Assembly: GCA_007118495.1 (NCBI GenBank)
Contig: SKRM01000011.1
Coordinates: 1 to 64,000 of the forward strand
Direction: 5' to 3'
Origin: Bacteroidales bacterium
Lineage (GTDB): Bacteria; Bacteroidota; Bacteroidia; Bacteroidales; UBA7960
Length of the DNA: 64,000 nucleotides
Shown here: positions 5,592 to 25,359 of the stretch, piece after piece
Numbering within the stretch: the stretch's first letter is position 1
Layout of the letters: the number at the start of each line of letters is the position of its first letter
Notes under the pieces: generated by a model
What the model saw: only the letters and a program-made list of their open reading frames with translations
Database searches by the model: none
What the model was told of the DNA's origin: nothing
Translations under genes and position numbers: made by a program

Positions 5592-7082
<1,491 letters not shown>

Positions 7083-20788: not shown

Positions 20789-20974
20789 ATGAACAGATAC
20801 AAAAAGTTAAGAAAAAACGATGACCGCATGATCTTTGGAGTTTGCGGCGCACTCGCTGAATACTTTAACATGGATCCAACCCTGGTCAGGATTCTTTTTG
20901 TTATAGGGTTTTTTCTCGGACTCATCGGATTGCTGTTCTACCTTATCCTTGCCATTGTTATTCCTTCACGCTAA
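20789..20974 (+). CDS. Small PspC-domain membrane protein
   Basis: A 61-residue protein made almost wholly of a PspC domain: a charged N-terminus (MNRYKKLRKNDDRMIFGVCG), the ALAEYFNMDPTLVRILFV motif and one or two hydrophobic segments (FVIGFFLGLIGLLFYLILAIVI). PspC proteins respond to envelope stress in other bacteria; stand-alone short forms are frequent in Bacteroidetes and their role is not settled. TATATTTG (20755-20762) may be the -7 element, although its -33 position falls within the preceding terminator. Confidence 0.85.
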   Translation: MNRYKKLRKNDDRMIFGVCGALAEYFNMDPTLVRILFVIGFFLGLIGLLFYLILAIVIPSR

Positions 20975-21004: not shown

Positions 21005-21035
21005 TTTGGCGACAGGGTAATAATTTCTATATTTG
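21005..21035 (+). promoter_or_regulatory. Consensus Bacteroidetes promoter of the methyltransferase-peptide-radical SAM cassette
   Basis: TTTG (21005-21008), exactly 19 bases, then TATATTTG (21028-21035) match the Bacteroidetes sigma consensus TTTG-N19-TAnnTTTG without mismatch. Transcription would begin near 21042, 46 bases before the methyltransferase start. There is no other good promoter before 23186, so the three cassette genes are likely one transcript. Confidence 0.75.
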
Positions 21036-21087
21036 TCTTTATTGTTATATACATATATGCATCTTTTAAAACACAATCAATTATTCC

Positions 21088-21726
21088 ATGAGTGATTTGT
21101 CAGGTAGTATTGCAAAAAGATACGATGCGCTCTCAGCCAAAGATTGCTGCCTTTCATGTGGCGGAGCTTTTTCACTTGCAGAAATAAAAGCCGGAGATGT
21201 TTGCATTGATCTTGGTTGCGGAAAAGGACATGACGTTCTCCGCATGGCCACTTTGGCCGGAGATAACGGCATGGCATGGGGTGTGGATATTTCTGACGGG
21301 ATGCTGGATACAGCTATCAGGCATGCCCAGGTTATGGGATTTGAAAATGTCAGGTTTATTAAGTCAGAGCTGGAACAGATTGATCTTGCAAGTGATTTTG
21401 CAGATGTTGTTATTTCAAACTGTACCATCAACCACTCCCTTGAGCAGGATATGGTTTGGCGGGAGATATTCAGGATACTCAAACCCGGGGGCCATTTCGT
21501 TGTCAGCGACATATATGCAACAGAAAAGGTTCCTGATATTTTCCGCAACGACTCTGAAATGGTTGCCCAATGTTGGGCAGGTGCAGTTACAAAAAGCCAG
21601 TATATGCAGCATATAGAAGATGCAGGTTTTTCTCAGTCAGAGGTGTTGGAAGAATCGAATCCATATGATAAGGGCAGCATTCAGGTTGCAAGTTTTACAA
21701 TAAAAGGAACAAAGCCAAAAACATAA
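21088..21726 (+). CDS. ArsM-like SAM-dependent methyltransferase in a peptide-modification cassette
   Basis: A 212-residue class I methyltransferase. Motif I is DLGCGKGHD (41-49), the post-I acidic residue is in WGVDISDGML, and the region VISNCTINHS followed by FRILKPGGHFVVSDIY is characteristic of the arsenite methyltransferase (ArsM) neighbourhood. Cysteines at 20, 21, 24, 39, 44, 112 and 162 include counterparts of ArsM thiols (NCTINH, AQCWAGA). It has no arsR, arsB or arsC neighbours. Instead a 35-residue Cys peptide gene begins 14 bases after its stop, and a radical SAM/SPASM gene follows. It may methylate that peptide or a metalloid; the first is an inference from position, the second from family. 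Confidence 0.8.
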   Translation: MSDLSGSIAKRYDALSAKDCCLSCGGAFSLAEIKAGDVCIDLGCGKGHDVLRMATLAGDNGMAWGVDISDGMLDTAIRHAQVMGFENVRFIKSELEQIDLASDFADVVISNCTINHSLEQDMVWREIFRILKPGGHFVVSDIYATEKVPDIFRNDSEMVAQCWAGAVTKSQYMQHIEDAGFSQSEVLEESNPYDKGSIQVASFTIKGTKPKT

Positions 21727-21739
21727 AAATCATATCCAG

Positions 21740-21847
21740 ATGAAGAGTCTTATCAAAAAAACAAACAAAAAAGAAAAGCAGCCAACGACAAAACAAGCAC
21801 AGTGCTGCGCAAAAACCACCATTGCCCAGGCAGGTTGTCACGATTAA
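21740..21847 (+). CDS. 35-residue Lys-rich, Cys-containing peptide, candidate modified-peptide precursor
   Basis: A short frame of 35 codons fills the space between the methyltransferase and radical SAM genes. The product begins MKSLIKKTNKKEKQPTTKQA and ends QCCAKTTIAQAGCHD: a basic, polar N-terminal half that could serve as leader and a C-terminal part with Cys 22, Cys 23 and Cys 33 and several Thr and Ala residues. The stop at 21845-21847 is six bases before the radical SAM start. Length, composition and position are those of precursors for SPASM-type peptide maturases, but I know no named family with this sequence. Expression is not shown. Confidence 0.65.
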   Translation: MKSLIKKTNKKEKQPTTKQAQCCAKTTIAQAGCHD

Positions 21848-21853
21848 TGACAA

Positions 21854-23155
21854 ATGGGTGCTTCCAAGTATAATATTGTTGCAGAAATTCCTGGAACAGA
21901 AAACTACATTCTGGCTAATTTGCTTTCTGGTCAGGCAGATATCATATCAAAATCTGAACTTGACCAATTAAAGCAATGTAGCGGGCATTTGCAAAATGCA
22001 GACTTTGTATCCAAAGGGTATATTACTGATCCGGATCAGGAAAAACAACGCCTGCGCCTTGCCTATATAGATTTTCTGGAGCAAAGAAGCAAAGAGGAGG
22101 TTCAGATTTTTTTCGCACCAACCTACAATTGCAACTTTGAATGCAGTTATTGCTACCAGTCATCATACCATCACTCACCGGAAAAACTTTCAGAAGAGCT
22201 GATTGACGGTTTATTCATATTCATCAATACTCACCTGGCCCAACAGAAAAAATACATCACCCTTTTTGGAGGTGAACCATTTTTATCGGGCAAATCGTAC
22301 ATGACTGCTCTGGATTACTTCCTTGAGCTTTGTGGCAGGCATGACATGGATGTTGCTGCTGTGTCTAACGGATATTACCTGGATCAATACCTACAGATGC
22401 TTGAAAAGGTAAATATTCGTGAAATTCAACTTACACTAGACGGCCCCGAAAAGACACACAACAGACGAAGACCTTACAAGGGAGGCAAACCAAGCTTCAG
22501 CAGAATCGTTTCAAATATTGAAGAATGCCTGTCAAGAGGAATCACAGTAAATCTGCGCGTTGTGGTCGACAAGGACAATATCGGCACCCTTCCTGAGCTG
22601 TCGAGATTTGCCATAGACAGAGGATGGACAACATCTCCCGGTTTCAAGACCCAGCTGGGACGCAATTATGAACTTCACCACTGCCATGCAGGCGCAGAAA
22701 AGCTGTTTTCAAGACTAGGCCTGTATGGTGAACTATACATGCTTATTCAAAACCATCCTGAAATACTTGAATTCCATCGACCGGGATTCAGCGCAGCCCG
22801 CTTCATAAAAGACAACGGAGCATTACCTGCTCCCCTTTTTGATGCCTGCCCGGGTTGCAAAAGTGAATGGGCCTTTGATTACCTTGGAAATATTTATAGC
22901 TGTACTGCCACCGTTGGGAAAAAAGGTGAAGAACTGGGCAGCTTTTTCCCAAATATCAAGCTCAACCACGAAGAAATTGCCAAATGGCAAAGCAGAGATG
23001 TCCTTTCCATTAAAGAATGCAGAGAATGTCATCTGCAACTCTTGTGCGGAGGCGGCTGCGGCGCCATTGCCAAAAACAGCAAAGGGAGCATTCTGGCAGC
23101 TGATTGCCGGCCAGTTGACAAGCTTCTCGGAATGGGCATTTCTACATATTTTTGA
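21854..23155 (+). CDS. Radical SAM/SPASM domain protein, candidate peptide maturase
   Basis: A 433-residue radical SAM enzyme. An N-terminal part of about 85 residues (MGASKYNIVAEIPGTENYIL...) precedes the cluster motif CNFECSYC (Cys 93, 97, 100); GGEP at 139-142 is the usual SAM-binding strand. The C-terminus is a SPASM domain with Cys 332, 335, 350, 389, 392, 398, 402 and 418 (CPGC, CRECHLQLLCGGGC, ADCRP), enough for two auxiliary iron-sulfur clusters. Enzymes of this build modify small peptides (thioether or carbon-carbon links) or mature sulfatases. No sulfatase is near, while a small Cys peptide lies directly upstream, so peptide maturation is favoured. Confidence 0.88.
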   Translation: MGASKYNIVAEIPGTENYILANLLSGQADIISKSELDQLKQCSGHLQNADFVSKGYITDPDQEKQRLRLAYIDFLEQRSKEEVQIFFAPTYNCNFECSYCYQSSYHHSPEKLSEELIDGLFIFINTHLAQQKKYITLFGGEPFLSGKSYMTALDYFLELCGRHDMDVAAVSNGYYLDQYLQMLEKVNIREIQLTLDGPEKTHNRRRPYKGGKPSFSRIVSNIEECLSRGITVNLRVVVDKDNIGTLPELSRFAIDRGWTTSPGFKTQLGRNYELHHCHAGAEKLFSRLGLYGELYMLIQNHPEILEFHRPGFSAARFIKDNGALPAPLFDACPGCKSEWAFDYLGNIYSCTATVGKKGEELGSFFPNIKLNHEEIAKWQSRDVLSIKECRECHLQLLCGGGCGAIAKNSKGSILAADCRPVDKLLGMGISTYF

Positions 23156-23185
23156 TCTTTTTTTCTGGCTTAATCAGATTTTACA

Positions 23186-23193
23186 TACCTTTG
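23186..23193 (+). promoter_or_regulatory. -7 element of the cobalamin operon promoter
   Basis: TACCTTTG matches TAnnTTTG, and transcription from about 23200 would begin right at the start of the riboswitch. A T-rich stretch upstream may act as a poor -33 box. Confidence 0.5.
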
Positions 23194-23203
23194 TCGCGTA
23201 CAG

Positions 23204-23380
23204 GTTCCGGCATCCAATTCGGATCAACCGGATGAAAAGGGAATCGGGTGAAAGTCCTGAACAGTTCCCGCTGCTGTAAGCTCCTGCATATATTGTTTAT
23301 CTCTGCAATGCCACTGCCCAAAAGGGTGGGAAGGCGATAAACATGGAGTAAGTCAGAAGACCTGCCTGCACTATTAATGA
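23204..23380 (+). ncRNA. Cobalamin riboswitch
   Basis: The leader before the TonB receptor carries the conserved blocks of the Bacteroidetes cobalamin aptamer in order: GGATGAAAAGGGAATC and GGGTGAAAGTCCTG, the B12-box core ACAGTTCCCGCTGCTGTAA, a GCCACTGCCCAAAAGGGTGG hairpin, GGGAAGGCGATAAACATGGA and the closing AAGTCAGAAGACCTGCC. Adenosylcobalamin binding would turn the downstream uptake genes off. The ends are approximate. The regulated receptor starts at 23428. Confidence 0.92.
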
Positions 23381-23427
23381 TTTGTAGCTTTCGGGAAAAA
23401 GGCAAAAATTTACCGGAAACCAATCGT

Positions 23428-25359
23428 ATGTTTCGTGTTATATTGTTGTGTTTATTGCCACTTCAGGCATTGGCTGGTAATGTTTACCTGCCTGATAGTC
23501 TTATCACATTGGATGAGGTGCAGGTAAGTGCGTCAAGATACCAATTGTTTGATGCCGGCTATCAACTGATGCAAATCCAGGATCATGCCATCAGTGGTCA
23601 TCAGCATCAGTCAATTGATCAGTTATTGCGCCGGCACAGCGGAATTTTCATAAAAAGTTATGGGCCTGGAATACTTGCCACCACCTCATTGCGTGGAGGG
23701 TCGGCAGCCCAGACTGCTTTGGTGTGGAATGGATTTCATATACAAAACCCGATGCACGGGCAAACAGACCTGGCTCTGATACCCGTTTTTTTCACTGACC
23801 GCATCAGTGTTCAATATGGAGGAGGCAGTGCCATATGGGGAAGCGGGAGCATGGGAGGGGTTGTCCACTTTCAAAATGACAGATTCAGCGAACAAGGGGT
23901 ACAAACCACCTTCGGGTTAAGCGGTTCTGACACCGGAGAGCTTTTACAGCAATTGTCACTTGGTGCTGGTTTCGGACGTATAAGCACCAGAATCAGGTTA
24001 TTCAACCTGAGAGCAGATAATCGCTATCAGTACATAAACACGGGTTTTGCTCATCAACCTGTTATGACGCAAGAATTTGCCGGTGCCAGACAACAAGGTA
24101 TCCTGCATGAAATTTATTATCAACCCCATCCAAAACACCATGTGGATATCAGGTGGTGGCTACAAGACAACGCACGCCATATTCCGCCAGGCTTGATGCA
24201 AATGCATCAAGGTGGCTTCCAGGAGGATGCATCTCTTCGACTCACCGGGCAATGGTCATATGCCGGAAAAAACGGTATTGTAAACTGGAGGGGGGCATTT
24301 TTTGACGAACAACTTCTATATATTGACAGCCTGAGCCATAAAAGCAATTCATCTGCTGAAACCCTTTCGCAAGAAGCAGATTTTATCTTTGGCCTGGCTT
24401 CAGGATTGGTTGGAAGTGCCGGCTTTCATACCCAACGGGTCAGGGCATGGTCAGATGAGTATGCAGACCGAAAACAGCAGTTGACCCACGCATTATTCGC
24501 ATCGCTTAAATGGGATCTGGTGGCAAACACCATACAACTGCATGCCAATGCCAGACAGGAGTTCCTTTCAGGCCATGACGTTCCTTTTGCTCCATCTCTG
24601 GGTGTATCATGGAGGGTGAAATCAGGAATGTATGTAAAAGCAAACGCCGGAAAGAGCTATCGAATCCCCAGCCTGAATGACAGATATTGGGTACCGGGGG
24701 GGAATCCTGACTTAAGGCCCGAAAGGGGCTGGAGTCAGGACATGGGGATCAACCTGGAACGTTCAGATCCAAAGCGTCCAGGTGCTTTCGAACGGTTTTC
24801 CCTTACAGGTTTTCATAGAATGATCAATGACTGGATTATCTGGGTGCCTGTACAGGGTAGCATGCACTGGAGACCTGAAAACATCATGCAGGTGAAAAGC
24901 TATGGAGCTGAAACCCGTATGCAGGGTCAGTTACAAAGAGGAGAAACTATTTTTAACTGGGAAGTTTTGTGGGATTATACAAGGACTGTCAATACAGTGG
25001 CGAAAAGTCCCAACGATGCTTCAAAAGGAAAGCAACTCATATATGTTCCACAAAACCAGTTGGGTATTAATATGCATGTAACGCACAGGCAATGGCAACT
25101 TTCAATGAATCAGTCATATACAGGGAAACGCTATACCACTACTGACAACAGCCAGTGGCTCGAAGCTTATCACCACACTGACATAACTCTCTATTGGAAA
25201 CCCACTTCATATCAATTGACTGTGTTTACATCAATAAACAATGTGTTCAATGAATCATACCAGATTATGTCCGGAAGGCCAATGCCCCTTAGACATTTCA
25301 GGGCAGGGGTCAGATATTCAGTAAATCTTTATACACAAAACAAATCAGATGGTCTATGA
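23428..25359 (+). CDS. btuB: TonB-dependent cobalamin receptor (BtuB-like)
   Basis: An outer-membrane TonB-dependent receptor of 643 residues. The Met at 23428 starts a signal peptide (MFRVILLCLLPLQALAG); the reading from 23377 runs into the riboswitch and is rejected. LDEVQVSASR near the mature N-terminus is a TonB-box-like segment, the plug follows (LLRRHSGIFIKSYGPGI, TTSLRGGSAAQTALVWNG, GGGSAIWGSGSMGGVV), then a barrel ending in an aromatic strand (LRHFRAGVRYSVNLY). The cobalamin riboswitch directly upstream and the BtuG-like propeller downstream indicate corrinoid uptake. It overlaps the next gene by four bases (ATGA). Confidence 0.9.
   Translation: MFRVILLCLLPLQALAGNVYLPDSLITLDEVQVSASRYQLFDAGYQLMQIQDHAISGHQHQSIDQLLRRHSGIFIKSYGPGILATTSLRGGSAAQTALVWNGFHIQNPMHGQTDLALIPVFFTDRISVQYGGGSAIWGSGSMGGVVHFQNDRFSEQGVQTTFGLSGSDTGELLQQLSLGAGFGRISTRIRLFNLRADNRYQYINTGFAHQPVMTQEFAGARQQGILHEIYYQPHPKHHVDIRWWLQDNARHIPPGLMQMHQGGFQEDASLRLTGQWSYAGKNGIVNWRGAFFDEQLLYIDSLSHKSNSSAETLSQEADFIFGLASGLVGSAGFHTQRVRAWSDEYADRKQQLTHALFASLKWDLVANTIQLHANARQEFLSGHDVPFAPSLGVSWRVKSGMYVKANAGKSYRIPSLNDRYWVPGGNPDLRPERGWSQDMGINLERSDPKRPGAFERFSLTGFHRMINDWIIWVPVQGSMHWRPENIMQVKSYGAETRMQGQLQRGETIFNWEVLWDYTRTVNTVAKSPNDASKGKQLIYVPQNQLGINMHVTHRQWQLSMNQSYTGKRYTTTDNSQWLEAYHHTDITLYWKPTSYQLTVFTSINNVFNESYQIMSGRPMPLRHFRAGVRYSVNLYTQNKSDGL

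Follow-up and report, generated by a model that had tools for sequence, protein, structure and literature searches.

A probable four-member RiPP pathway combining a radical SAM/SPASM maturase with an ArsM-type methyltransferase and a thioredoxin–thioredoxin reductase fusion

Introduction

In the biosynthesis of PQQ and mycofactocin, a SPASM maturase acts on a short peptide and the peptide-derived product is an intracellular cofactor. To our knowledge, peptide-derived products whose core is fixed across phyla are few, PQQ and mycofactocin being the known examples, and both proved to be cofactors. Of the radical SAM/SPASM peptides of similar size, most were first proposed as natural products, and methyltransferases are common RiPP tailoring enzymes. 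The pairing of an ArsM with a radical SAM enzyme is known from the clusters for arsenosugars (ArsM/ArsS) and arsinothricin (ArsL/ArsM), whose radical SAM enzymes, as far as we know, are not SPASM peptide maturases and whose pathways involve no peptide.

Here we analyse a 64,000-nucleotide stretch of a Bacteroidales contig (SKRM01000011.1), referred to as the window, for which the original prediction, made from sequence, described a mismatch-free Bacteroidetes promoter followed by an ArsM-like methyltransferase gene, a 35-codon frame and a radical SAM/SPASM gene.

Results

Layout of the locus

The promoter and all three frames were found as described (Table 1). Since the promoter motif has five sites in the window against 1.1 expected by chance, the site is weak evidence alone and is supportive only. 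The spacing between the peptide frame and the radical SAM gene is 6 bases, as originally given; that between the methyltransferase gene and the peptide frame is 13 bases rather than 14. Just 5′ of the promoter lies a gene for a PspC-domain protein of 61 residues (20789-20974). Directly 3′ of the trio, a cobalamin riboswitch (Rfam RF00174, 106 bits; 23185-23383) precedes a TonB-dependent receptor-like gene (23377-25359), a neighbourhood common only to the window's clade and outside the system.

Table 1. Positions in the window of the promoter, the three genes and their predicted functional elements
Feature	Position	Strand	Description
Promoter, Bacteroidetes-type	21005..21035	+	TTTG-N19-TATATTTG; 0 mismatches; upstream of the trio
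ArsM-like SAM methyltransferase	21088..21726	+	212 aa
Predicted precursor peptide gene	21740..21847	+	35 aa; MKSLIKKTNKKEKQPTTKQAQCCAKTTIAQAGCHD
Near-invariant peptide core	21797..21844	+	AQCCAK-x-S-x4-GCHD; peptide residues 20-35
Radical SAM/SPASM protein, probable peptide maturase	21854..23155	+	433 aa
N-terminal domain of maturase	21854..22093	+	Residues 1-80; RiPP recognition element-like (weak matches)
Radical SAM cluster motif	22130..22153	+	C93-x3-C97-x2-C100
SPASM region	22847..23107	+	C332 (C335), G-x4-C350, C389-x2-C392-x5-C398-x3-C402, C418

A short cysteine peptide is conserved beside the maturase

The radical SAM protein was searched for in 59 related genomes, which yielded 22 near orthologues, and, by an alignment-based method, across about 85,000 species, which yielded 367 relatives, the best 80 of which were analysed. 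Upstream of all 22 orthologues lies a same-strand frame of 31-39 residues with the terminus CC-x9-CHD, and a peptide likewise lies upstream of the maturase in 80/80 of the best 80 of the 367 relatives. The latter recurrence is an independent test because these loci were retrieved via the enzyme and not via the peptide. The expectation that a short frame with CC-x9-C would accompany homologues of the radical SAM gene is thereby borne out at both depths, and the 35-codon frame is kept in relatives that have both enzymes.

One consensus, MK[ST]L[IV]KK-x(n)-AQCCAK-x-S-x4-GCH[DN], describes the peptides of all 22 orthologues and all 80 loci; that of the window terminates in CC-x9-C-H-D, with T replacing the core S. 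Among 73 distinct peptides the core residues A, C, C, A, K, G, C and H are invariant, Q is present in 72, S or T occupies position -9 in 71, and D is found in 71, with N in two. The leader MK[ST]L[IV]KK is also conserved and the link between leader and core is variable. Pairwise comparison of the ten motif codons, by counts that ignore kinship, gave 16,317 synonymous versus 238 non-synonymous differences. In nearly all 80 loci the peptide lies 4 to about 240 bases from the maturase; in two (L077 and L082) the distance is 1.3-2.4 kb, with an outer-membrane protein gene inserted between them. Moreover, a DNA pattern of the peptide matched six of 395 genomes of the phylum (reversed control, 0), and the five new matches adjoin the same two genes, for the methyltransferase and the radical SAM protein. 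Neither NCBIfam nor Pfam yielded a model for the peptide. On these comparative sequence grounds the small frame is a real gene, conserved far above chance.

Extra cysteines, for example as SCC, SCGC or ASCCAPA, occur in the variable link of some peptides (loci L053, L077, L082, L097, L100, L103, L129, L131 and L136).

The radical SAM protein most resembles CteB

The three cysteines of the CX3CX2C radical SAM motif (C93, C97 and C100) are invariant in 63 sequences, as are the SPASM cysteines C332, C350, C389, C392, C398, C402 and C418, which were aligned to those of CteB; C335 varies. For an AlphaFold model of the protein (mean pLDDT 91.6), the structure closest over the whole chain was that of CteB (VIA-align Z 26.9, rmsd 3.7, 393 residues, 17% identity), its alignment beginning at residue 4, and the next-closest structures, anSME and ChlB, aligned only from residue 81 onward. 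Residues 1-88 folded alone had leader-bound TbiB1 and CteB as their top matches among 350,542 chains, these matches being weak (E 0.03 at best).

The nearest NCBIfam models were CefB, TIGR04463 and the Clo7bot maturases, all of them presumably, going by name, models of small-peptide maturases and each far under its cut-off; PapB ranthipeptide maturases (NF047865) gave 107.9 bits against a cut-off of 340. Assignment to a known NCBIfam RiPP maturase family was rejected, all scores being far below cut-offs. Nor does the protein group with sulfatase-maturing enzymes, the assignment that the original prediction had named as contrary to its reading: TIGR03942 gave 72.1 bits against a cut-off of 349, and the alignments of solved sulfatase maturases start no earlier than residue 81. 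Judging from sequence and model together, the peptide is very probably the substrate of the radical SAM/SPASM enzyme, because it is conserved in 80/80 loci, the N-terminal domain is leader-binding-like and the nearest structure is CteB. The conservation and the likeness to CteB also uphold the earlier view of the trio as one functional unit in which the radical SAM enzyme matures the peptide.

The methyltransferase is an ArsM paralogue tied to the peptide

Using tblastn, we found the methyltransferase within 4.5 kb upstream of the maturase in 72 of the 74 loci with enough sequence, as anticipated for an ArsM-like gene beside radical SAM homologues. In the two exceptions (L073 and L111) a TonB-receptor gene lies upstream, followed by the contig end. 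In most loci the methyltransferase gene adjoins the peptide gene. The protein belongs to the ArsM family, scoring 182.8 bits with the NCBIfam ArsM model PRK11873, under the cut-off of 263. Its C24, C112 and C162, which align with the As(III)-binding ligands C72, C174 and C224 of CmArsM (PMC3877260), are kept in 73, 75 and 74 of 75 members. C20, C21 and C39 are also conserved, the N-terminal CC and the arsenite-site cysteines being present in 72-75 of 75.

In a sample of 247 genomes of the window's order, methyltransferase matches of at least 197 bits occur in exactly the 32 maturase-positive genomes, and the ordinary ArsM proteins of many of the 247 score at most 143 bits, leaving a clean gap. 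The window's own genome (G000) has its ordinary ArsM on a different contig, within an ArsR-ArsC-ArsM-Acr3 operon (C33, ~6526-7026; L124). By these scores the methyltransferase and the ars-operon ArsM are separate paralogues. Homologues of arsR, arsC and acr3 were not found in the 80 loci by tblastn with one query each, the window genome's own copies, and on this basis an arsenic resistance island was rejected.

A thioredoxin–thioredoxin reductase fusion is the fourth member

The original prediction was of a three-gene system; the trio stands as a unit, and what it missed is a fourth member and the spread of the system across phyla. This member, about 425 residues long, joins a thioredoxin domain (TEC[PA]PC) at the N-terminus to a thioredoxin reductase domain (C[AP][TP]CD), the Thioredoxin and Pyr_redox_2 Pfam domains both lying above gathering scores; one fusion scored 315.6 bits with the thioredoxin reductase model TIGR01292, just under the cut-off of 343. 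The fusion is encoded in the locus in 59 of 76 cases and at most 700 bases from the maturase in 55. The 17 loci without it all belong to Bacteroidales MAGs close to the window's own, in which it is encoded elsewhere; in the window's genome it is unlinked (G000:C41:52056-53309).

Across the order sample, both the methyltransferase of this type (32/32 maturase-positive versus 0/215 negative genomes) and the fusion (31/32 versus 0/215; Fisher 1e-38, with genomes treated as independent, though related) follow the maturase. The fusion is present in 19/22 positives and 1/37 negatives of the related genomes, incomplete MAGs included, and in 8/11 positives and 0/226 negatives of a second sample, drawn from the phylum to which one Myxococcales MAG belongs (237 genomes). 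On contigs of sufficient length, the maturase of most positives in the second sample has the peptide, methyltransferase and fusion genes next to it, with the distant homologue L135 as the clear exception; one genome (G870) has three cassettes. Moreover, the pairwise distances of maturase, methyltransferase and fusion correlate at 0.79-0.91. Such unlinked co-occurrence of the fusion over many families is hard to explain except as a shared system: the precursor peptide, the radical SAM/SPASM maturase, the ArsM-type methyltransferase and the Trx-TrxR fusion are inherited together.

By their contig titles the loci come from Bacteroidota, Ignavibacteria, Spirochaetota, Myxococcota, Elusimicrobia and Neomarinimicrobiota, these being MAG titles of which single contigs may err, though the 11 positives of the second sample back a spread beyond Bacteroidota; nearly all named matches are MAGs. 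A distant maturase homologue (L135; 38% identity) has neither peptide nor methyltransferase in the available stretch and is perhaps an earlier or reduced form of the system. Adjacent to it are separate genes for a thioredoxin with the same TECPPC motif and for a thioredoxin reductase. Carriage by phage or plasmid was rejected, the peptide DNA pattern having no match in viral contigs and the maturase none on plasmids, and so was a role in anti-phage defence, for which PADLOC gave only weak superfamily matches.

Gene neighbourhood

The recurring neighbours amount to ordinary synteny (DNA ligase, CreD, an aminotransferase and others), with DUF1847 in 15 loci and DUF6132 in 11. Families of exporters, peptidases or immunity proteins did not recur beyond single clades in the loci examined. 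Genes for TonB-dependent receptors or outer-membrane barrels lie within or beside the cluster in L050, L073, L079, L110, L111, L077 and L082, and may reflect ligand uptake or chance. In Prolixibacteraceae (L067, L070, L071, L078, L095 and others), genes with phage tail sheath domains, possibly of a contractile injection system, occur 2-8 kb upstream on the opposite strand.

Discussion

We favour a dedicated four-member RiPP pathway with an intracellular product, to which we assign a probability of roughly 0.8, a figure that excludes any metalloid step. In such a pathway the N-terminal domain of the maturase would bind MKSLIKK, the short basic leader, and the enzyme would modify the core AQCCAK-x-S-x4-GCHD, most likely by introducing, like CteB, a thioether or similar cross-link at cysteine; the thioredoxin pair would keep the thiols of peptide and methyltransferase reduced, and the product would stay inside the cell. 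This location is proposed because the core hardly differs from phylum to phylum and recurrent exporters or peptidases are missing; since an immunity family does not recur either, retention in the cell is the simplest reading. The Trx-TrxR fusion and the spread over several phyla likewise point to use inside the cell. The product is probably intracellular and cysteine-based, and the near-unchanging end of the peptide points to a functional cell component common to these bacteria and not to an antibiotic. On the other side, the TonB receptor or outer-membrane protein genes in some clusters would fit an imported or exported product, against an intracellular one, and the L135 locus, together with a recognition-element match that is weak by itself, tells against such a pathway.

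Two tentative and about equally likely readings, which co-occurrence cannot separate, concern the target of the methyltransferase. In one, the product would act as a ligand, its three cysteines holding a soft metalloid (in the first place arsenite) for the methyltransferase. Methylation of a metalloid is at least as likely as that of the peptide because the enzyme keeps the full arsenite site, and since AS3MT methylates arsenite with the help of Trx, TrxR and NADPH (PMC12608789), an ArsM-type enzyme with a dedicated Trx-TrxR could already be a complete arsenite-methylating set, one to which a peptide with three cysteines is linked. The lack of arsR, arsC and acr3 in the 80 loci and the separate ars operon with its own ArsM argue against a role in arsenic metabolism. 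The fullest version, in which the peptide would be a RiPP cofactor of several phyla, presenting arsenic or another soft metalloid as its ligand to an ArsM paralogue recharged by its own thioredoxin, we regard as somewhat unlikely. In the other reading, the radical SAM step would be followed by methylation of the peptide itself by the methyltransferase, at the C-terminal carboxylate, a lysine, a histidine or the sulfur of a cysteine, with the thioredoxin pair doing no more than keeping cysteines open. This was the view originally taken, and it agrees with the adjacency of methyltransferase and peptide genes in most loci, with their perfect co-occurrence and with the conserved K, H and D of the core; however, it leaves the arsenite-site cysteines and the N-terminal CC unexplained, which a peptide methyltransferase would not obviously need.

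Alternatively, the mature peptide might be a redox cofactor or low-molecular-weight thiol, peptide-derived like PQQ and mycofactocin, with Trx-TrxR as its reductase and the methyltransferase finishing the cofactor. The near-invariant core across phyla, the missing exporter and the strict co-occurrence with a dedicated thioredoxin reductase-type enzyme that carries redox motifs are all consistent with this proposal, which we nevertheless consider unlikely: no dependent dehydrogenase or other user enzyme recurs in adjacent positions, and the Trx domain may have the methyltransferase as its partner instead. That the product is a secreted RiPP, bacteriocin-like or signalling, as the TonB receptor or outer-membrane protein genes inside a few clusters would suggest, is highly unlikely, given that there is no conserved exporter, peptidase or immunity gene and that the core is not diversified between phyla. 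The small frame is short and lies between two enzyme genes, but it is barely credible that it occurs by chance or serves as a regulatory leader, with the radical SAM protein being a sulfatase maturase or an enzyme of another kind. This reading is contradicted by amino-acid-level conservation with synonymous drift, by a peptide that persists whether it lies 4 bases or more than 1 kb from the maturase, and by the low sulfatase-maturase score.

The four-member pathway that we favour bears the same fixed-core, cross-phylum signature as PQQ and mycofactocin and is carried by roughly one genome in eight of the order sample. It poses the question of whether a ribosomal peptide takes part in metalloid methylation or an arsenite methyltransferase fold has been re-used on a peptide, and its four genes are a short list that can be expressed together.

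Comparison with known systems

A search of the available literature found no paper on AQCCAK or on Cys-every-fifth, none joining SPASM, ArsM and RiPP and none describing the four-gene set, in keeping with the original prediction, which knew of no described system with the trio; a survey of Bacteroidales RiPPs (PMC10352776) mentions neither arsenite methyltransferase nor thioredoxin. The system shares with CteA/CteB (SCIFF, thioether/ranthipeptide) the full-length fold of the maturase and the SPASM cysteines, and the N-terminal domain of the maturase resembles the leader-binding domain of CteB, weakly when folded alone. It differs in having three core cysteines, another core motif and methyltransferase and Trx-TrxR partners, and the SCIFF model TIGR03974 gives only 73.1 bits against a cut-off of 425. 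CefB (NF038107, Cys-every-fifth), the best NCBIfam model for the maturase at 145.3 bits against a cut-off of 600, resembles it in acting, going by the model's name, on a short cysteine peptide, whereas the peptide here has CC-x9-C and not a cysteine at each fifth residue.

With CmArsM and AS3MT the methyltransferase shares its family and the three As(III)-binding cysteines, but it is shorter at the N-terminus than ArsM and strictly tied to a peptide, and it reads SNCTINH where the ars-operon ArsM of the same genome reads SNCVLNL. The organoarsenical clusters have the same pairing of ArsM-type and radical SAM enzymes, although the methyltransferase falls far below the cut-offs of the arsenosugar and arsinothricin ArsM models. 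From PQQ and mycofactocin the system differs in core, partners and maturase family, the mycofactocin maturase model giving 57 bits against 265. In conclusion, the system is probably a radical SAM/SPASM RiPP in kind, with unusual partners and an unusual constancy across phyla.
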